A stretch of DNA of 64,000 bases, from assembly GCA_964036665.1 (NCBI GenBank), contig OZ038530.1, forward strand, positions 14,293,001-14,357,000, in the 5' to 3' direction. Source of the DNA: Gordius sp. MW1 (lineage: Eukaryota > Nematomorpha > Gordioida > Gordea > Gordiidae). The translations under genes were made by a program, and so were the position numbers. Within the stretch, counting starts at the first letter, position 1; the number at the start of each line of letters is the position of its first letter. Under the pieces are notes generated by a model. That model was given only the letters and a program-made list of their open reading frames with translations, was not told the origin of the DNA and ran no database searches. Of this stretch, positions 6,969 through 49,673 are shown one piece after another.

Positions 6969-28742
<21,774 letters not shown>

Positions 28743-40485: not shown

Positions 40486-41089
40486 CTATTAAACAACAGA
40501 ATAATTTAATAGTGTAATAAATATTAATATGGATTTAATTCAAAGCATGCAATTATGAAGGTACAATGGTACACGACTTTTTAATAAAGGCCAGAGTCTC
40601 TAAAAACATTCTCATTATTAATCAAAATAAAATGGTCATTTAACAAAAATAACATTTTTTTTCAAATAACACTTGCTCATAATTATATTAGGTTATAGAA
40701 AATTAATATTTAAAACAACGTTTAAGATAATTTAAACTATTTATTAGTATATAAAGTATACAAACCTGGATTTTCAGTTATAATTAAGAATAAATTTTTT
40801 AATCTCGAAAGGAAATTTTATTCTTCCAAATAAATCGCATCTCGATATAATGAAAAGAATCCTAGATCACCGCTAGATATTATATTTTATTCAAAATAGT
40901 TCAAGGACGCTATATTAAAGGGTATTATGGTAACTTCGGATAGCAGCTTGTAAAATACAAATTAGGGGGGGGGGGGGTATTCTGTTAGATACCCAATATG
41001 CAGAGTATACTGCCTATCCATCATTTTTCTATACAAATTTAATCATTTTGAATTTTCTATAATTAAGAAAGTAAAGTAAGAGGCGTGGA

Positions 41090-41187
41090 GCAAAGTTGAC
41101 ATAGGCTTTGCCTTTGAACAAGAGCTCGCGGGTTCAAATCCCGCTTTCGGCACTTTAAATATATCACATCGTCAACACGGCTGTCAG
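41090..41187 (+). mobile_element. tRNA-derived SINE, copy 2, 5' part
   Basis: The same tRNA-like head as copy 1 (AACAAGAGCTCGCGGGTTCAA region with B box GGTTCAAATCC and GGCAC), then TCACATCGTCAACACGGC to GGCTGTCAG, where the retroelement pair begins. The 3' part resumes at 47758. Confidence 0.8.
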
Positions 41188-41302
41188 AGATATCTCCCCC
41201 TCTACCGTTTGTTTTATTTTATATTCTCACTCACAAATATTTCATGTATAACGCGCGCGTATTATAAAACATATATGTATACTGTGAATAATGATCGAAA
41301 AT

Positions 41303-41492
41303 TAAGGGTTATTACTTAAACTGGCGCAAAAACAGTAGGCAAGCAAGAAACAAGATAAATTCGATATTTACAGGTGCCGAATTATACTGTGTTTCTTAGA
41401 CTAAGTAAGGGTCTTTTGCACCTGTAAATATCGAATTTATCTTGTTTCTTGCTTGCCTACTGTTTTTGCGCCAGTTTAAGTAATAACCCTTA
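41303..41492. repeat. Terminal hairpin of retroelement copy 1
   Basis: Two about 75-bp arms, from TAAGGGTTATTACTTAAAC to TTTACAGGTGC and its reverse complement, surround a spacer of about 41 bp. A transcript through it would fold into a long stem. The same arm occurs singly, next to the spacer, at the other three ends of the two copies. Confidence 0.9.
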
Positions 41493-41603
41493 ATTTTTGT
41501 GCGGAACTATTATTAACTACATCAGGAATTCCCCCCTGCTTCTACCTTGTCCAATTCCTCTTCTTTCCCCCCTTTTATATCCCCACCCCGCTTCTCTTGC
41601 CTT

Positions 41604-42518
41604 ATGCCAAGAGGAAGGAAAGAGATCACGATGACTACTCTTACCTACATCACCCCTGGTACCTCCTCCGTGTCAACAGTCCAAACCATTATCCCTATGA
41701 CGGACATGTTTTCGCAGACGTCGTTCCTGAATAACTACGTACCGCCTGGGCAAGCAGAAAAAGTCCTCACAGAATCTGAGGTGGTCACGGAGGCAATCAT
41801 CTCACCCCTAAAGACGCCAGAGAAGGAGTCAATGCCGTCGGCGTACCAGCTACACTCATTGATTGCCGGATGGGCTTCGAAGATGAACCGCATGGAAGCA
41901 TTGCTTGAATCACGCCTACCCGGACCCGCGAGCAAAGAAACAAGACCCTTCGCAAGCGGAGCGCAAGCCACATCATCCCATGTCTACGAGTCCGCCGAGG
42001 ATCTCGCGCATTGGGGGCCATCGCAACCAGCGAAGATGCATATGTTAACAGATGCAGAACTCAAAAGGATCATTGACATCGAAAAAGCTAAGTGTTCCCC
42101 CACGATGGAACCTACCAACGTCGAACTTCTCAAGAAAAGGCTAAAAGCCCTTAAAGAAGCGTGCGACAAGAATCCATCCATCCCGCCATACCAACGGCAT
42201 GAAGCCGAGTTCCTGTTATCAATGGGGGAAACGATAGATTGCTTTGAGGACACAATCGACAAGTTCTCGGATAGAGTTAAGACCCTCGCATTGGCTACAT
42301 ACTACGGATGGCAGGCAGTCACTGGAAAATCCAAAGACTGGGCAGAAAGGAATGGATTAGGATCCTACACAGAACCCGTAAATACGTACAGGACTTATAG
42401 AAGGCCTCGAGCAGAGTACACGGAACAATCGAGTTCCTTTCGTTCGACTAGTCGACCTCAAAATCAAAGAAGGGCGCCCCCGGCCAGAAAGAAAGGGGCG
42501 TCAGAGGATAGGACGTAG
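41604..42518 (+). CDS. Gag-like protein of retroelement copy 1
   Basis: 304 residues from the ATG at 41604; the frame is open a further 19 codons upstream. It lies 5' of the polymerase ORF, as a capsid gene would. The middle is helical and charged (DAELKRIIDIEKAK, ELLKKRLKALKEA) and the tail is rich in Arg/Lys (RRPRAEY, RRAPPARKKG), suited to nucleic acid binding. There is no CCHC zinc knuckle and no aspartic protease motif. I assign it as Gag by position, size and basic tail; sequence alone does not tie it to a known capsid family. Confidence 0.65.
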   Translation: MPRGRKEITMTTLTYITPGTSSVSTVQTIIPMTDMFSQTSFLNNYVPPGQAEKVLTESEVVTEAIISPLKTPEKESMPSAYQLHSLIAGWASKMNRMEALLESRLPGPASKETRPFASGAQATSSHVYESAEDLAHWGPSQPAKMHMLTDAELKRIIDIEKAKCSPTMEPTNVELLKKRLKALKEACDKNPSIPPYQRHEAEFLLSMGETIDCFEDTIDKFSDRVKTLALATYYGWQAVTGKSKDWAERNGLGSYTEPVNTYRTYRRPRAEYTEQSSSFRSTSRPQNQRRAPPARKKGASEDRT

Positions 42519-42540
42519 GGAGCGATCCTACGTCCGGAAG

Positions 42541-44340
42541 GTGGCGGCGACCCTCAGCAGCGGTGTATACCCGCTGAGGTCAGTGGGAGACGAACGGATT
42601 CCTGGTTGGCTAACTAACATCACCTCAATAGCCAGGAGTCTCGCCCTAAATACGATCTCCCCTGACAATGGTCCGGAGGTAGAGGAGCCCGATCCGCCCT
42701 TTACCACGTCGCCACCCGCTCCAGCTAATGTGCCGGAACATCTCCAAAATGATTGGACGGTGGTGGGCCCTGACGGCGAGGACCCACCTATCATCAGCGA
42801 ACCTTCCAATATCCCCCTATTTCCCCATGTCCCAAGCGTTAATTTCTCTCACTCCACCTTCATACACCCATTAAACATTGAAACCACGATCCTTAGACCG
42901 CATCATTCGCAATCCTCCTTCACAAACAAAGTGGCACGTCACGGATTCAAGCCACAGTACGATAGAAGAGCAATAGCCACGAATGAAGGGAGGTATTTCG
43001 TCCCAAACCGAGTTCACCCTATTTCCCGAGAGCACAGACCACTAGCATACGAAGTAGTCGACTCCCAAGTGGTTAGAGAATCATCAAGGACAATCCCATC
43101 CTCAATGTACTTTATTCCAAAAAGCGATGGGAGCCCTAGACTGATAGCGGATCTGGGTACAGTATCACGCAACTTCATAAAATACCCCTTCTCCCTCAAA
43201 TCTATCCCGTTGATAGCATCCTCATTAAAGGAAGCCCGATTCGCCACGAAAATCGACATGAAATCCGCCTTTTTCTCTATTCCCCTAGACCCAGCAATCA
43301 GCCACCTGTTCGGTTTCAAGATAGGGAGACGAAAATTCTGTTACAACGTCCTGCCTATGGGAGCAAGCTTCTCCCCCTTTGTACTACAGCAGATAATGCT
43401 GGACCTGTGCGCCAAATCAGTCACGACTTGTAGGTACAATGTATACCTCGACGATGTATTGATCTATGGGCCCACTTACGAAATCGTTAAAGCCAACACC
43501 AAAGCTTTCCAAAAACTGTGCTCAAAGTGGAATCTCTCGATTAATCCCCGAAAATCAATCCTTGCACCCGTACAAGAACTGTCATACCTGGGCATCGATA
43601 TCAACTTGATACGCCACACCCTCAATATCAACGACAAATTCTTCGAAAAAATTGATGCGGCAGCCAGAATTATGTCCCACTTCACGACAACAAACACAAA
43701 ACCTCACCCCCTAGTAACACAGATATGCCTGGGGATCCTCACGCACTACATATACATGGTGACAGGCTGGTCTAAATATATGTCCCCTTGGTATAACTTA
43801 TTCCTAAGCGACAACCCAGTCCCGTTTAATACCAGATGGATGACAATCAAGCTAATGGAATTGCGGGAGGCCCTCACGTTCCCATTACCGATGCAACTAA
43901 ATTTTTCCCACGTAGTTTCGGCAGATGCCTCGACAAAGTACCTGGGCATATCGTTTCGGGGGCACAACATGTCAATTTCCAAGGCAGATGCGATGGGAGC
44001 GTTCAGATGTCACTCTTTCATACCTACCATTAATCTGCTGGAGATGTTGGCAGTCCCCTTGGCACTGTTACGTGTGGAGTCCGAATACCCAAACATTAAA
44101 CCAAAAATATGCACCGACTCCAAGACCGCTTTTTATATACTAAAGAAAGGTTCAGCCCATGCACCCCATCTAGAGGAAGCCCTATCCAAGATAATTCATG
44201 TCATCGGAGGGGAAAGAATGCTTACCATCAAGCAGGGTTTAGAATGGGTACCAACGAATGCAAACCCAGCCGATACTCCATCACGAATATGGATGCCAGC
44301 TCCAGAACACTGGGAAAGGATCCGTGGGCTCATGCTTTGA
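42541..44340 (+). CDS. Reverse transcriptase-RNase H polyprotein of retroelement copy 1
   Basis: 599 codons from GTG at 42541 to TGA. The frame is open back to 42382, overlapping gag by about 137 nt in the +1 frame, and has no ATG near its start, so expression by frameshift or reinitiation is likely. Residues 1-180 are a Pro-rich region without protease motif. The RT shows motif A IDMKSAFF (D239), motif B PMGASFSPF (272-280) and motif C YLDD (302-305). RNase H has D462, E501, D526 and D578 within NPADTPSR. The ORF ends soon after, leaving no room for integrase. RT type is uncertain: DIRS, BEL-Pao and hepadnavirus-like lineages all share parts of this pattern. Confidence 0.9.
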   Translation: MAATLSSGVYPLRSVGDERIPGWLTNITSIARSLALNTISPDNGPEVEEPDPPFTTSPPAPANVPEHLQNDWTVVGPDGEDPPIISEPSNIPLFPHVPSVNFSHSTFIHPLNIETTILRPHHSQSSFTNKVARHGFKPQYDRRAIATNEGRYFVPNRVHPISREHRPLAYEVVDSQVVRESSRTIPSSMYFIPKSDGSPRLIADLGTVSRNFIKYPFSLKSIPLIASSLKEARFATKIDMKSAFFSIPLDPAISHLFGFKIGRRKFCYNVLPMGASFSPFVLQQIMLDLCAKSVTTCRYNVYLDDVLIYGPTYEIVKANTKAFQKLCSKWNLSINPRKSILAPVQELSYLGIDINLIRHTLNINDKFFEKIDAAARIMSHFTTTNTKPHPLVTQICLGILTHYIYMVTGWSKYMSPWYNLFLSDNPVPFNTRWMTIKLMELREALTFPLPMQLNFSHVVSADASTKYLGISFRGHNMSISKADAMGAFRCHSFIPTINLLEMLAVPLALLRVESEYPNIKPKICTDSKTAFYILKKGSAHAPHLEEALSKIIHVIGGERMLTIKQGLEWVPTNANPADTPSRIWMPAPEHWERIRGLML

Positions 44341-44787
44341 TCGAAATTTAAGGGCATACCCCAGAACTTCAACCGGTATGCCCTGGGCAAAAGACCCTTA
44401 CTTAGTCTAAGAAACACAGTATAATTCGGCACCTGTAAATATCGAATTTATCTTGTTTCTTGCTTGCCTACTGTTTTTGCGCCAGTTTAAGTAATAACCC
44501 TTAATTTTCGATCATTATTCACAGTATACATATATGTTTTATAATACGCGCGCGTTATACATGAAATATTTGTGAGTGAGAATATAAAATAAAACAAACG
44601 GTAGAGGGGGAGATATCTCTCCCCTTAGGGTTATTACTTAAACTGGCGCAAAAACAGTAGGCAAGCAAGAAACAAGATAAATTCGATATTTACAGGTGCC
44701 GAATTATACTGTGTTTCTTAGACTAAGTAAGGGTCTTTTGCCCAGGGCATACCGGTTGAAGTTCTGGGGTATGCCCTTAAATTTCGA

Positions 44788-46587
44788 TCAAAGCATGGGC
44801 CCACGGATCCTTTCCCAGTGTTCTGGAGCTGGCATCCATATTCGTGATGGAGTATCGGCTGGGTTTGCATTCGTTGGTACCCATTCTAAACCCTGCTTGA
44901 TGGTAAGCATTCTTTCCCCTCCGATGACATGAATTATCTTGGATAGGGCTTCCTCTAGATGGGGTGCATGGGCTGAACCTTTCTTTAGTATATAAAAAGC
45001 GGTCTTGGAGTCGGTGCATATTTTTGGTTTAATGTTTGGGTATTCGGACTCCACACGTAACAGTGCCAAGGGGACTGCCAACATCTCCAGCAGATTAATG
45101 GTAGGTATGAAAGAGTGACATCTGAACGCTCCCATCGCATCTGCCTTGGAAATTGACATGTTGTGCCCCCGAAACGATATGCCCAGGTACTTTGTCGAGG
45201 CATCTGCCGAAACTACGTGGGAAAAATTTAGTTGCATCGGTAATGGGAACGTGAGGGCCTCCCGCAATTCCATTAGCTTGATTGTCATCCATCTGGTATT
45301 AAACGGGACTGGGTTGTCGCTTAGGAATAAGTTATACCAAGGGGACATATATTTAGACCAGCCTGTCACCATGTATATGTAGTGCGTGAGGATCCCCAGG
45401 CATATCTGTGTTACTAGGGGGTGAGGTTTTGTGTTTGTTGTCGTGAAGTGGGACATAATTCTGGCTGCCGCATCAATTTTTTCGAAGAATTTGTCGTTGA
45501 TATTGAGGGTGTGGCGTATCAAGTTGATATCGATGCCCAGGTATGACAGTTCTTGTACGGGTGCAAGGATTGATTTTCGGGGATTAATCGAGAGATTCCA
45601 CTTTGAGCACAGTTTTTGGAAAGCTTTGGTGTTGGCTTTAACGATTTCGTAAGTGGGCCCATAGATCAATACATCGTCGAGGTATACATTGTACCTACAA
45701 GTCGTGACTGATTTGGCGCACAGGTCCAGCATTATCTGCTGTAGTACAAAGGGGGAGAAGCTTGCTCCCATAGGCAGGACGTTGTAACAGAATTTTCGTC
45801 TCCCTATCTTGAAACCGAACAGGTGGCTGATTGCTGGGTCTAGGGGAATAGAGAAAAAGGCGGATTTCATGTCGATTTTCGTGGCGAATCGGGCTTCCTT
45901 TAATGAGGATGCTATCAACGGGATAGATTTGAGGGAGAAGGGGTATTTTATGAAGTTGCGTGATACTGTACCCAGATCCGCTATCAGTCTAGGGCTCCCA
46001 TCGCTTTTTGGAATAAAGTACATTGAGGATGGGATTGTCCTTGATGATTCTCTAACCGCTTGGGAGTCGACTACTTCGTATGCTAGTGGTCTGTGCTCTC
46101 GGGAAATAGGGTGAACTCGGTTTGGGACGAAATACCTCCCTTCATTCGTGGCTATTGCTCTTCTATCGTACTGTGGCTTGAATCCGTGACGTGCCACTTT
46201 GTTTGTGAAGGAGGATTGCGAATGATGCGGTCTAAGGATCGTGGTTTCAATGTTTAATGGGTGTATGAAGGTGGAGTGAGAGAAATTAACGCTTGGGACA
46301 TGGGGAAATAGGGGGATATTGGAAGGTTCGCTGATGATAGGTGGGTCCTCGCCGTCATTGCCCACCACCGTCCAATCATTTTGGAGATGTTCCGGCACAT
46401 TAGCTGGAGCGGGTGGCGACGTGGTAAAGGGCGGATCGGGCTCCTCTACCTCCGGACCATTGTCAGGGGAGATCGTATTTAGGGCGAGACTCCTGGCTAT
46501 TGAGGTGATGTTAGTTAGCCAACCAGGAATCCGTTCGTCTCCCACTGACCTCAGCGGGTATACACCGCTGCTGAGGGTCGCCGCCAC
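44788..46587 (-). CDS. Reverse transcriptase-RNase H polyprotein of retroelement copy 2
   Basis: 599 codons, the same domains and catalytic residues as copy 1 (YLDD, RNase H DEDD set). It differs from copy 1 by only three residues: Pro to Asn in the N-terminal acidic segment, Val to Ala in the SQVV/SQAV stretch, and Leu to Pro near the C-terminus. No stop or frameshift. Near identity of two intact copies implies a recent duplication or recent assembly-level inversion. Confidence 0.9.
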   Translation of the reverse strand: MAATLSSGVYPLRSVGDERIPGWLTNITSIARSLALNTISPDNGPEVEEPDPPFTTSPPAPANVPEHLQNDWTVVGNDGEDPPIISEPSNIPLFPHVPSVNFSHSTFIHPLNIETTILRPHHSQSSFTNKVARHGFKPQYDRRAIATNEGRYFVPNRVHPISREHRPLAYEVVDSQAVRESSRTIPSSMYFIPKSDGSPRLIADLGTVSRNFIKYPFSLKSIPLIASSLKEARFATKIDMKSAFFSIPLDPAISHLFGFKIGRRKFCYNVLPMGASFSPFVLQQIMLDLCAKSVTTCRYNVYLDDVLIYGPTYEIVKANTKAFQKLCSKWNLSINPRKSILAPVQELSYLGIDINLIRHTLNINDKFFEKIDAAARIMSHFTTTNTKPHPLVTQICLGILTHYIYMVTGWSKYMSPWYNLFLSDNPVPFNTRWMTIKLMELREALTFPLPMQLNFSHVVSADASTKYLGISFRGHNMSISKADAMGAFRCHSFIPTINLLEMLAVPLALLRVESEYPNIKPKICTDSKTAFYILKKGSAHAPHLEEALSKIIHVIGGERMLTIKQGLEWVPTNANPADTPSRIWMPAPEHWERIRGPML

Positions 46588-46609
46588 CTTCCGGACGTAG
46601 GATCGCTCC

Positions 46610-47524
46610 CTACGTCCTATCCTCTGACGCCCCTTTCTTTCTGGCCGGGGGCGCCCTTCTTTGATTTTGAGGTCGACTAGTCGAACGAAAGGAACTCGAT
46701 TGTTCCGTGTACTCTGCTCGAGGCCTGGTATAAGTCCTGTACGTATTTACGGGTTCTGTGTAGGATCCTAATCCATTCCTTTCTGCCCAGTCTTTGGATT
46801 TTCCAGTGACTGCCTGCCATCCGTAGTATGTAGCCAATGCGAGGGTCTTAACTCTATCCGAGAACTTGTCGATTGTGTCCTCAAAGCAATCTATCGTTTC
46901 CCCCATTGATAACAGGAACTCGGCTTCATGCCGTTGGTATGGCGGGATGGATGGATTCTTGTCGCACGCTTCTTTAAGGGCTTTTAGCCTTTTCTTGAGA
47001 AGTTCGACGTTGGTAGGTTCCATCGTGGGGGAACACTTAGCTTTTTCGATGTCAATGATCCTTTTGAGTTCTGCATCTGTTAACATATGCATCTTCGCTG
47101 GTTGCGATGGCCCCCAATGCGCGAGATCCTCGGCGGACTCGTAGACATGGGATGATGTGGCTTGCGCTCCGCTTGCGAAGGGTCTTGTTTCTTTGCTCGC
47201 GGGTCCGGGTAGGCGTGATTCAAGCAATGCTTCCATGCGGTTCATCTTCGAAGCCCATCCGGCAATCAATGAGTGTAGCTGGTACGCCGACGGCATTGAC
47301 TCCTTCTCTGGCGTCTTTAGGGGTGAGATGATTGCCTCCGTGACCACCTCAGATTCTGTGAGGACTTTTTCTGCTTGCCCAGGCGGTACGTAGTTATTCA
47401 GGAACGACGTCTGCGAAAACATGTCCGTCATAGGGATAATGGTTTGGACTGTTGACACGGAGGAGGTACCAGGGGTGATGTAGGTAAGAGTAGTCATCGT
47501 GATCTCTTTCCTTCCTCTTGGCAT
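46610..47524 (-). CDS. Gag-like protein of retroelement copy 2
   Basis: Identical to copy 1 except for one Arg to Thr change in the basic tail (RTYRRP versus RTYTRP). Same ATG, same stop, same spacing to pol. Confidence 0.65.
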   Translation of the reverse strand: MPRGRKEITMTTLTYITPGTSSVSTVQTIIPMTDMFSQTSFLNNYVPPGQAEKVLTESEVVTEAIISPLKTPEKESMPSAYQLHSLIAGWASKMNRMEALLESRLPGPASKETRPFASGAQATSSHVYESAEDLAHWGPSQPAKMHMLTDAELKRIIDIEKAKCSPTMEPTNVELLKKRLKALKEACDKNPSIPPYQRHEAEFLLSMGETIDCFEDTIDKFSDRVKTLALATYYGWQAVTGKSKDWAERNGLGSYTEPVNTYRTYTRPRAEYTEQSSSFRSTSRPQNQRRAPPARKKGASEDRT

Positions 47525-47757
47525 AAGGCAAGAGAAGCGGGGTGGGGATATAAAAGGGGGGAAAGAAGAGGAATTGGACAAGGTAGAAGCAGGGGGGAAT
47601 TCCTGATGTAGTTAATAATAGTTCCGCACAAAAATTAAGGGTTATTACTTAAACTGGCGCAAAAACAGTAGGCAAGCAAGAAACAAGATAAATTCGATAT
47701 TTACAGGTGCCGAATTATACTGTGTTTCTTAGACTAAGTAAGGGTCTTTTGCCCAGG

Positions 47758-47818
47758 GCCACCCCTCATCCAAATATCTAAGGAAGCTGACAACCTTAGT
47801 GTGACAAACAGCTATTGG
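47758..47818 (+). mobile_element. tRNA-derived SINE, copy 2, 3' part
   Basis: CACCCCTCATCCAAATATCT to GACAAACAGCTATTGG matches the 3' body of SINE copy 1. Compared with copy 1, the 18 bases GCCTGGATAGCCGAGCAT are absent between the two halves, so the retroelement insertion left a small deletion rather than a visible duplication. Confidence 0.75.
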
Positions 47819-47821
47819 ATT

Positions 47822-49673
47822 TTTAATTGCTATGCAATTTATGGGCTCGTTTTTGGTTGTCCGTTGTCCGTCCGTTACCCTCCCTATCTATTTGCATTGG
47901 GTATATTAGGTTATCGCTTTTTTAAATTAATGCATGAGCAAGAGGTGCCCCACCCCTCATCTCTATCTCCCTCGGTGTGTTACATTATATATAAGATTTG
48001 TTAAATTATCTATTATATAATAAACATAAATAAAAGTTGTTTACTTTTAATGCTATGCAATTTAACTAGTTATATAATAAACATAAATAAAAGTTGTTTA
48101 CTTTTAATTGCTATGCAATTTAACTAGTTTTTGTTATATAATAAACATAGATAAAAGTTGTTTACTTTTAATGCTATGCAATTTAACTAGTTATATAACA
48201 AACATAAATAAAAGTTGTTTACTTTTTAATTGCTATGCAATTTAACTTGTTTTGGGGTTAGAATCCCGGAGTTTTTTTGACTCTTATGATTGTTCTTGTT
48301 ACTATCATTGATAATAAGAATTTTTGGCCGTCCGCTGGCTACTGACCAATGAAAAAAATGACCATTGGCCAAAATGTGAATCGAAATTATTTTTTTCGTT
48401 TTTTTGACTATTATGATTGTTCCTGTTTCTACCATTGCTATTATGACTTTTTGGCCGTCCGCTGGCTGCTGACCAATGTTATATAATAAACATAAATAAA
48501 AGTTGTTTACTTTTAATTGCTATGCAATTTAACTAGTTTTTGGGTTAGAATCCCGGAGTTTTTTTTGACTCTTATGATTGTTCTTGTTACTATCATTGAT
48601 AATAAGACTTTTTGGCCGTCCGTTGGCTGCTGACCAATGAAAAAATGACCATTGGCCAAAATGTGAATCCGAGTTTATTTTTTCGTTTTTTTTTGACTAT
48701 TATGATTGTTCCTGTTACTACCATTGCTATTATGACTTTTTGGCCGTCCGCTGGCTCCTGACCGATGGAAAAAATGACCATTGGCCAAAATGTGAATCGA
48801 AATTATTTTTTTCGTTTTTTTTTGACTATTATGATTGTTACTGTTCCTACCATTGCTATTATGACTTTTTGGCCGTCCGCTGGCTGCTGACCAATGGAAT
48901 AAAATGACCATTGGCCAAAATGTGATTCGAAAACTTTTTTTTCGTTTTTTTTGACTATTATGAATTTATATCCACTTTTACCGTGTCCTGGCTGCTGACC
49001 AATGGAAAAAAAATGACCATTGGCCAAAATGTGATTCGAAAATTTTTTTTTCGTTTTTTTTACTCTTGTGAATTTATATCTACTTTTACCGTGTGCTGGC
49101 TGCTGACCAATGGAAAAAAATGACCATTGGCCAAAGTGAGCATCAAAATATTTTTTTCCGTTTTTTTGGCTATCATTGACTTATAGAGTATCTGTTGGTA
49201 CTGACCAATAGAGAAAAAGTGACCATTGGCCAAATTTTTGATTTTTTTAATTAAAAATTGTTCAAATTCAACAAAAAATTTCTCCCAACAATTCTGCAAA
49301 TTCTTAACATTGTGTTGTTTTATAATATAATGTTTGTTAGACCCATAATCACTAAAGGCCATAAAAACTAATGTAATACGCAACTAGATGCAAACACTAA
49401 ATCTAACCCTAACCCTTGCCTATATTACATTTTGCCTTTATTACATTTTGCCTATAATGGAAAATTTGTATAAATAATTAATTAATCATTAGGCATTTAA
49501 TACCCCCCTATAGGCATTCTCGCCCCTTCCCACCTTTCTCGCCCATAAATTGCATAGCAAATATGATACATTTATACGAAGTACAGATGAGTCGTCCCCC
49601 CTTCCCTTCCCCTCTTCCCTTCCCTTCCCTTCCCTTCCCTTCTCCCCCTTCCCACGAGGGCCGAAGGCCCGAG
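47822..49673. mobile_element. Tandem-repeat-bearing element, copy H2 (inverted relative to H1)
   Basis: Starts with TTTTAATTGCTATGCAATTT and ends with the hairpin CGAGGGCCGAAGGCCCGAG, i.e. the reverse complement of H1. The interior holds about eight units of the 110-bp repeat on the opposite strand and several copies of a 60-bp repeat absent from H1. It begins immediately after the SINE copy 2 tail. H1 and H2 are a 1.9-2.1 kb inverted pair about 13 kb apart. Confidence 0.65.
48000..48540. repeat. About 60-bp repeats with a TGCTATGCAATTTAACTAG core
   Basis: Four to five units of TATAATAAACATAAATAAAA then GTTGTTTACTTTTAATTG and the core, at 48010-48250 in tandem and again at 48480-48540 after an intervening 110-bp-type unit. 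The interspersed order suggests amplification by unequal exchange or template switching. Confidence 0.8.

Follow-up and report, generated by a model that had tools for sequence, protein, structure and literature searches.

How a retroelement enters chromosomes is central to what it is called, since retrotransposon classification rests largely on the mode of integration. The locus studied here, in a 64,000-nucleotide stretch of contig OZ038530.1 of the nematomorph Gordius sp. MW1 (hereafter the window), raises the question of how an element with a gag-like gene, a reverse transcriptase (RT) and an RNase H, and no recognisable integration enzyme, is inserted and kept in a genome.

Two copies in the window

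The window holds two copies of 3.1-3.2 kb, each made of a gag-like ORF and an RT-RNase H ORF, at the positions given in the initial annotation: 41547-42518 and 42541-44340 on the forward strand for copy 1, and 46610-47581 and 44788-46587 on the reverse strand for copy 2. They have 3,084 bp in common, with 6 differences. Copy 1 proper spans 41418-44626, with a 5' repeat (R) that is missing its initial ~40 bp. Copy 2 spans 44627-47759 and is devoid of the U' segment. The probable start of gag is the ATG at 41604, not the TTG at 41547. The features are as follows.

41186..41417, reverse: solo R-U', 100% reverse complement of 44389-44620, with block U at 41186-41297, block B at 41298-41377 and block C at 41378-41417; the cut at the 3' end falls within the terminal hairpin
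41418..41497, forward: truncated 5' R of copy 1, block B' only, C' missing (the complete 5' R is C'B' in L029 and L030)
41604..42518, forward: gag-like ORF of copy 1; counted from the ATG it encodes 304 aa, and the frame is already open at the TTG at 41547
42541..44340, forward: pol ORF of copy 1, with a low-confidence N-terminus of ~110 aa, RT (YLDD), connection and RNase H (RVT_1 match and model)
44352..44383, forward: hairpin with conserved loop AGAACnnCAACCGGT, immediately 5' of the 3' R
44389..44508, forward: 3' R of copy 1, made of blocks C'B'; when complete, R starts with GCCCTGGGC, here at 44380
44509..44620, forward: U' of copy 1, containing the conserved AATATAAAATAAA
44605..44626, forward: terminal 9-bp hairpin with which copy 1 ends at 3', without the usual CAAAATTTT tail
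44627..44739, reverse: 3' R of copy 2, short by 7 nt, without U'
44788..46587, reverse: pol ORF of copy 2 (dS 0, dN 0.003 relative to copy 1)
46610..47524, reverse: gag-like ORF of copy 2, the mirror-image counterpart of 41604-42518
47631..47759, reverse: complete 5' R of copy 2, with start GCCCTGGGC

The terminal blocks had been likened to those of DIRS elements, but the inverted ends are an artefact, produced by copies that lie next to one another. We rejected the 234-bp "terminal inverted repeat" as a feature of the element because positions 41186-41417 lie outside copy 1, which starts at 41418, and are a separate solo R-U' in reverse orientation. The neighbours behind the apparent inverted ends are a solo R-U' in reverse, a copy truncated at 5' and a reversed copy. 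Other solo R-U' pieces were found at L053 and at L051, the latter with part of an additional R.

Proteins and selection

The pol product matches RVT_1 at 6e-24 in a Pfam search, and its AlphaFold model (mda87120a9b10) has the RT-connection-RNase H layout. The acidic residues of RNase H are invariant across four families. Relative to gag, pol lies in the +1 frame, and this frame stays open over the gag end in all four of them; it has 652-662 open codons in families A (that of the window), C5 and C7, and pol of C1 contains six in-frame TGA. Neither pol, in the Pfam search, nor the gag of the window copy matched protease, integrase or endonuclease families.

The gag-like ORF has an Arg/Lys-rich tail in copy 1, and its structure model is helical with a mean pLDDT of 55. 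We found no gag homologue: the profile search against capsid families proposed for this ORF, run in Pfam, gave no match to core families, and a search of PDB sequences gave no significant one. Both genes of family A are under purifying selection, with dN/dS values for gag of 0.063 (against L029) and 0.072 (against L030), and for pol of 0.028 in a single pair (against L030).

A compact anatomy without a recognisable integration enzyme

We searched the 212 Mb of the genome for relatives. Most of the 83 pol matches are known by coordinates only, and the anatomy given here rests on the relatives whose letters were examined, with pol identities of 56-95%. The related families share the order R(~125 bp)-gag-pol-R-U'-hairpin, in a unit of about 2.7-3.1 kb that has no room for a further gene; in L029, L030 and the C1, C5 and C7 arrays the units are bounded by R without spare room. 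The R repeats are direct, and the canonical L029, L030, C1 and C5 read R..R-U'. By blastn, U' in L029 and L030 lies downstream of the 3' R, and no copy of it was found before that repeat. Pol frames are open in several families at 53-100% identity, and they are largely open in a second clade of the same genome, at 34-39% identity. A tandem unit of this distant clade measures 2,793 bp.

The units contain no tyrosine recombinase ORF, and a genome-wide profile search for the tyrosine-recombinase family PF00589 gave 0 matches, with its control matching in 14/14 cases. The initial annotation had named longer relatives with an integrase or a recombinase as the finding that would overturn its reading, and we found none among the relatives whose letters were examined. 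Its proposal of a lineage with gag and RT-RNase H in which no integration enzyme can be recognised is upheld: no protease, integrase, endonuclease or tyrosine recombinase was seen. The window copies are not deletion derivatives, because the related families examined have the same anatomy with no room for an extra gene, the genes of family A are under purifying selection, and the PF00589 search of the genome found no tyrosine recombinase.

Arrays, ends and insertion sites

The copies are strongly clustered. Within 8 kb, 45 of 93 gag copies fall in 16 clusters (mean 0.7 and maximum 6 in 500 random sets), and the corresponding figure for other RT hits is 14 of 150. Neighbouring pairs are tail-to-tail (13), head-to-head (3) or on the same strand (13). 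Array units abut and are 98.5-100% identical, and an 88-bp pol fragment forms filler between two C5 units. Part of each array may result from unequal crossing over, since the two C1 junctions are identical.

Two insertion sites could be mapped against empty copies. The site of L036 is clean, without target duplication and with a 24-bp deletion: four of five empty copies have a 24-bp stretch absent from the occupied copy, and in the fifth, L060, a separate gap lies at the same place. At the 5' junction of L036, GC is common to the target in three of those four. For L030, the flanks enclose an extra 803-817 bp at four places, which corresponds to a deletion of ~0.8 kb at insertion; the site lies in a tandem repeat, whose length is variable in any case. 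A constant LTR-type target duplication of 3-6 bp is absent at both sites.

We lean, by a little, towards a lineage of retroelements that pass through an extrachromosomal DNA stage and lack their own integration enzyme. Its cDNA would, by a similarly narrow preference, be joined to chromosomes by host end joining, often as concatemers. An RNA running from the 5' end of R to beyond the terminal hairpin would be packaged by gag, and RT-RNase H would make cDNA from the folded 3' end, while the two copies of R would permit strand transfer and circles. Linear, circular and partial DNAs could then be end-joined by the host to one another and to broken chromosomes, which would yield concatemers, solo R-U' pieces and truncated copies. 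The process would resemble the integration of hepadnavirus and plant pararetrovirus DNA, with the difference that here a chromosomal family is kept in the genome. Besides the compact units, constrained genes, arrays and insertion sites described above, a structured 3' end speaks for this reading: its stem has 8 cells with a change on both sides, compared with 3.3 in shuffles (1/500 as high). Against it, the 4 stem pairs with two-sided change do not exceed shuffles (122/500 as high), and the 5' ends are fairly exact (GCCAAACC in 4/4 C5 units), a regularity that an enzyme supplied in trans might explain as well.

Penelope-like elements and endonuclease-independent LINE insertions use target-primed copying at a nick or break. 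Such insertion, with the RNA 3' end copied at a pre-existing break or at one made by a LINE endonuclease in trans, is a rather unlikely account of this family. It fits copies truncated at 5' that keep the 3' hairpin (L050, L054), the conservation of this hairpin and its tail, and the deletions, since insertion at breaks yields these too. However, 3'-truncated copies also exist (window copy 2, L034, L049), no target duplication is seen at the two sites examined, and head-to-tail concatemers with filler would be unexpected.

A DIRS-, Ngaro- or PAT-type origin, with a tyrosine recombinase that has been lost or is provided in trans, is strongly disfavoured. The missing target duplication, the blocks that at first look inverted and a distant similarity of the RT to the DIRS-like protein P0020 would suit it, but the inverted termini are the artefact described above, R is direct with no U' before the 3' copy, the genome yielded no tyrosine recombinase, and the targets lost 24 and ~810 bp.

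Relatives of the RT and the hepadnavirus question

The RT forms a clade with full support (100/100) that includes one outside relative, from another horsehair worm: Gordionus sp. LOC135924019 (P0001), known here from the protein alone and the nearest protein outside the genome (36% identity over 70% of pol). The nearest RTs outside the clade are Ty3-type proteins, and the genome holds many Ty3-type elements, as one would expect if the copies were decayed or non-autonomous Ty3/BEL LTR elements that lost their integrase and were moved by relatives. We consider this hardly credible: the clade is separate, its frames are open or largely so across both clades, family A is under purifying selection, and the sites show no LTR-type duplication.

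The hepadnavirus-like organisation suggested at the outset fits in size and in its two-ORF plan; terminal-protein and core families gave no match, and the RNase H hit is weak. This sole Pfam hit of an RNase H piece, to hepadnaviral DNA_pol_viral_C (PF00336), concerns one of four pieces at E 0.063, below the cut-off, and whole pol gave no PF00336 hit at E <= 1. The hepadnaviral terminal-protein family PF00242 had no match in pol, although proto-viruses are very divergent. Searching the genome with PF00336 yielded neither a candidate nor a control match, and so carries no weight. Kinship with hepadnaviruses may exist.

The copies could instead derive from a still-infectious, non-enveloped pararetrovirus of hepadnavirus or proto-nackednavirus type, the arrays being accidental germline integrations. 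The unit of ~2.7-3.1 kb, the two main ORFs with no envelope or protease seen and the PF00336 hit speak for this reading. We judge it unlikely, as terminal-protein and core matches are missing, pattern scans of viral contigs confirmed no relative, and several families in one genome suggest a chromosomal life.

Membership of HEART is decided by an RT that is sister to Blubervirales. HEART are endogenous retroelements of insects and other invertebrates, reported to be related to Blubervirales (Gong and Han 2018, as summarised in PMC12691608, PMC11551314 and PMC12440569), and the hepadnavirus resemblance noted in the initial annotation leads towards them. Proto-nackednaviruses are described as circular genomes of ~3.2-3.5 kb that encode core and P (PMC12691608, PMC11551314). 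Should the RT-RNase H fall beside Blubervirales, it would bear on the origin of hepadnaviruses, because a published model, as outlined in PMC12691608, holds that they arose by escape from a HEART retroelement of an invertebrate.

Returning to end joining, a broader proposal is possible but doubtful: a new animal retroelement superfamily, perhaps the chromosomal sister of hepadnavirus-like DNA viruses, which would lack an integration enzyme and combine extrachromosomal DNA made by its own RT with concatemeric end joining in the germline, and would have persisted and diversified, as the 34-39% clade and the horsehair worm relative suggest. A selected, recently active family of retroelements with none of the known integration enzymes would mean that host repair alone can sustain such a lineage, and would form a chromosomal counterpart of integrase-free pararetroviruses.

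Comparison with known systems

The closest published kind is HEART, as described in citing papers, and the family may or may not belong to it. The integrase and protease domains of LTR retrotransposons (Ty3, BEL, Copia, Troyka) are absent from the units. DIRS, Ngaro, PAT and VIPER elements also have RT-RNase H without protease, no target duplication and odd terminal repeats, but here no tyrosine recombinase lies in the element or was found in the genome, R repeats are only direct, and targets carry deletions; the inverted terminal repeats or split direct repeats (A1..B1-A2-B2) of DIRS/Ngaro were not encountered in L029, L030, C1 and C5. Penelope-like elements share tandem pseudo-LTRs and truncated and inverted copies. 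They have a telomerase-like RT, often a GIY-YIG nuclease, and no RNase H, whereas our elements have an RT-RNase H of LTR type. Endogenous Caulimoviridae likewise lack an integrase and form tandem, rearranged chromosomal arrays. They are larger, with a protease, a movement protein and a different gag, and have plant hosts. Finally, Blubervirales resemble these elements in their ~3 kb, a core-like and an RT-RNase H ORF, the lack of integrase and protease, and terminal redundancy. In contrast, the elements described here have no terminal-protein or core match, carry a ~125-bp direct repeat with a unique U', and reside in the genome as endogenous arrays of several families.

Anatomy of the element and its relatives

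The element under study is a small retroelement with a gag-like ORF and a pol ORF encoding reverse transcriptase (RT) and RNase H. The features of the window that concern us are the following:

8459-9976 (+): 505-aa ORF that matches the Hermes (hAT) transposase (1e-54 over residues 10-443) and stops early; the hAT element is probably truncated
~41080-41155: B-box-containing, tRNA-like stretch whose end lies ~30 bp to the left of the insertion; ARAGORN called no tRNA here, and the stretch is perhaps a SINE relic
41418-44626 (+): element, copy 1
44627-47759 (-): element, copy 2
48006-49173: minisatellite arrays close to the element, with units of 57, 108 and 129 bp

Searches of the genome returned at least 127 matches to gag (124 of 166 candidates scored) and at least 83 to pol (73 of 1,970 scored). 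Two copies, L029 and L030, have both ends and share the order R-gag-pol-hairpin-R-U'-terminal hairpin, where R is a direct repeat of 120-129 bp and U' a unique block of ~112 bp; the pol of L029 is interrupted. The same order was found in three families related to the window's own family (A) and read in arrays: C1 (L048), C5 (L043-L044), and C7 (L045-L047). By reading, a motif like AGAACnnCAACCGGTwTGC lies directly 5' of the 3' R in A, C1, and C7, and is weaker in C5. Five A-type copies (L029, L036, L050, L051, and L053) end in the tail CAAAATTTT, variants of which occur in L052 and L055; no such tail is present in L030, L054, or the window copy. This tail is element-derived, since it is absent from the empty targets of L036 and from two copies of the target repeat fetched for L051.

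The 3' end is also structured. Across seven related rows, the 3' R is enclosed by a long-range stem of 13 pairs, with 91% of cells paired. For three helices taken jointly in these rows, pairing dropped from 94.5% to 36-57% when partners were slid by 1-3 columns, and there were 8 cells with two-sided changes where shuffling gave 3.3 (a value this high in 1 of 500 shuffles). The count of pairs with such changes, 4, did not exceed that in the shuffles (as high in 122 of 500). Three pieces containing the terminal hairpin folded at -14.1, -19.1, and -16.8 kcal/mol.

No recognisable integration enzyme in the units read

The initial annotation described an element with gag and RT-RNase H that lacks a recognisable integration enzyme. 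This was borne out and is well supported for the lineage: the relatives' units that we read have an R at either end with nothing else inside, which also led us to reject a deletion derivative of a longer element, and the tyrosine-recombinase family had no match in the genome in a search that was positive in 14 of 14 control genomes. A very divergent tyrosine recombinase could escape such a search, and integrases of other elements are surely present in the genome. Pol of copy 1 is 86% identical to that of L030 at the DNA level, with a dN/dS of 0.028; for gag of copy 1, dN/dS is 0.063 against L029 and 0.072 against L030. In pairs between families, dS is saturated.

Among the pol matches listed, 17 rows form a second clade with 34-39% identity to pol and largely open frames of 569-713 codons (one stop in 6 of the 17), at loci such as G000:C8:11687341-11691858, C7:26489, and C2:23029964. 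One tandem pair has a period of 2,793 bp, and the 1,081 bp between its pols hold, by reading, a TATA-like sequence, a short leader, and a first ORF with one frame change; the gag profiles gave no match to this ORF (best E 0.19-0.2). The 551 bp downstream of another pol of this clade contain no long ORF. TATATAA lies 5' of the first ORF in L066 and 3' of pol in L067. At G000:C6:19310079-19338382, four pol copies of the clade lie on one strand, 8.8-8.9 kb apart; they probably belong to a larger tandem repeat.

Inverted ends, arrays and insertion sites

The DIRS-like inverted ends initially ascribed to the element are an artefact of adjoining copies and pieces. The 234-bp inverted repeat of copy 1 comes from a solo R-U' in reverse orientation to the left of this copy, whose own R is missing its first ~40 bp; copy 2, likewise reversed, supplies the second half of the big palindrome. 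L053 also contains a solo R-U' piece, and L051 one accompanied by part of a second R. The piece in L053 (G000:C6:22613200-22613900) is centred in an inverted repeat of 134 bp (96%), as though it had inserted at a hairpin tip or the flanking host DNA had undergone inverted duplication. Four of the six differences between copies 1 and 2 make up two adjacent double substitutions (window 42400-42401 and 42769-42770).

Copies of the element are clustered. Once fragments were merged, 45 of 93 gag copies had a neighbour within 8 kb, in 16 clusters, against a mean of 0.7 clustered copies (maximum 6) in 500 random placements and 14 of 150 in a control made of the top-scoring subset of other RT hits. 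Among the 29 neighbouring pairs, the two copies share a strand in 13, lie tail-to-tail in 13, and lie head-to-head in 3 (13 tail-to-tail versus 3 head-to-head: two-sided binomial p 0.02, by hand). Array units are 98.5-100% identical to each other. Those of C1 are full elements that abut, with an identical junction twice; plus-strand units of C7 share a single R at each junction; and the C5 array has units in both orientations, with filler in the form of an 88-bp fragment of pol. Such arrays are what the joining of extrachromosomal DNA gives, and some units may have been added afterwards by unequal crossing over. Two pol copies of the C1 array (G000:C1:20868500-20873399) are each interrupted by six in-frame stops, every one of them TGA rather than TAA or TAG.

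Two insertion sites could be mapped. L036 lies in a Ty3-like gag repeat with at least 41 matching rows (40 of 324 candidates scored). Four of the five empty copies fetched hold a 24-bp stretch between the flanks that is missing from the occupied copy, a figure that assumes that the tail arrived with the element; in the fifth, L060, a gap of its own spans this place. Compared with these empty copies there is no target duplication, and at the 5' junction GC is common to element and target in three of the four with the 24-bp stretch. L030 lies in a tandem repeat; its two flanking sequences recur 803-817 bp apart at four places (two on contig C8, one on C5, and one on C1, where the right flank is at 87%). 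The single comparison copy read by letters revealed no target duplication; variation in array length is an alternative source of the size difference at this site. At L049 the left junction is blunt and R is truncated. The remaining flanks, which are unique or have a repeat on just one side, are uninformative for empty sites. Together, the two mapped sites and the anatomy of the arrays make integration by end joining likely.

Kinship with known elements

In an RT tree of 27 rows, our five sequences and Gordionus P0001 form one clade (100/100) on a long branch; forks deeper in the tree are weak, and the DIRS-like row could not be placed because it is too long. The RNase H was not recognised by Ty3-type models, and the sole Pfam match among its pieces was to the hepadnaviral DNA_pol_viral_C, in one of four pieces and below the cut-off (E 0.063); a DIRS-like protein had a weak match to RVT_3. 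A PDB search with the RNase H profile turned up no RNase H. In the viral structure library, an unnamed 634-residue protein came first, the named rows next below were mostly caulimovirids, and a hepatitis B P protein ranked 12th, a ranking that does not discriminate. Pattern scans confirmed no relatives in viral contigs.

In the portions of the literature searched, we found no description of an element with the present anatomy. The original paper on HEART elements is that of Gong and Han (2018). Several papers describe these as retroelements, from insects or invertebrates, that are related to Blubervirales (PMC12691608, PMC12440569, PMC11551314, PMC7955980), and another deals with such retroelements without using the HEART name (PMC6681497). 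HEART elements, known here from citing papers only, could be of the same kind as the present element.
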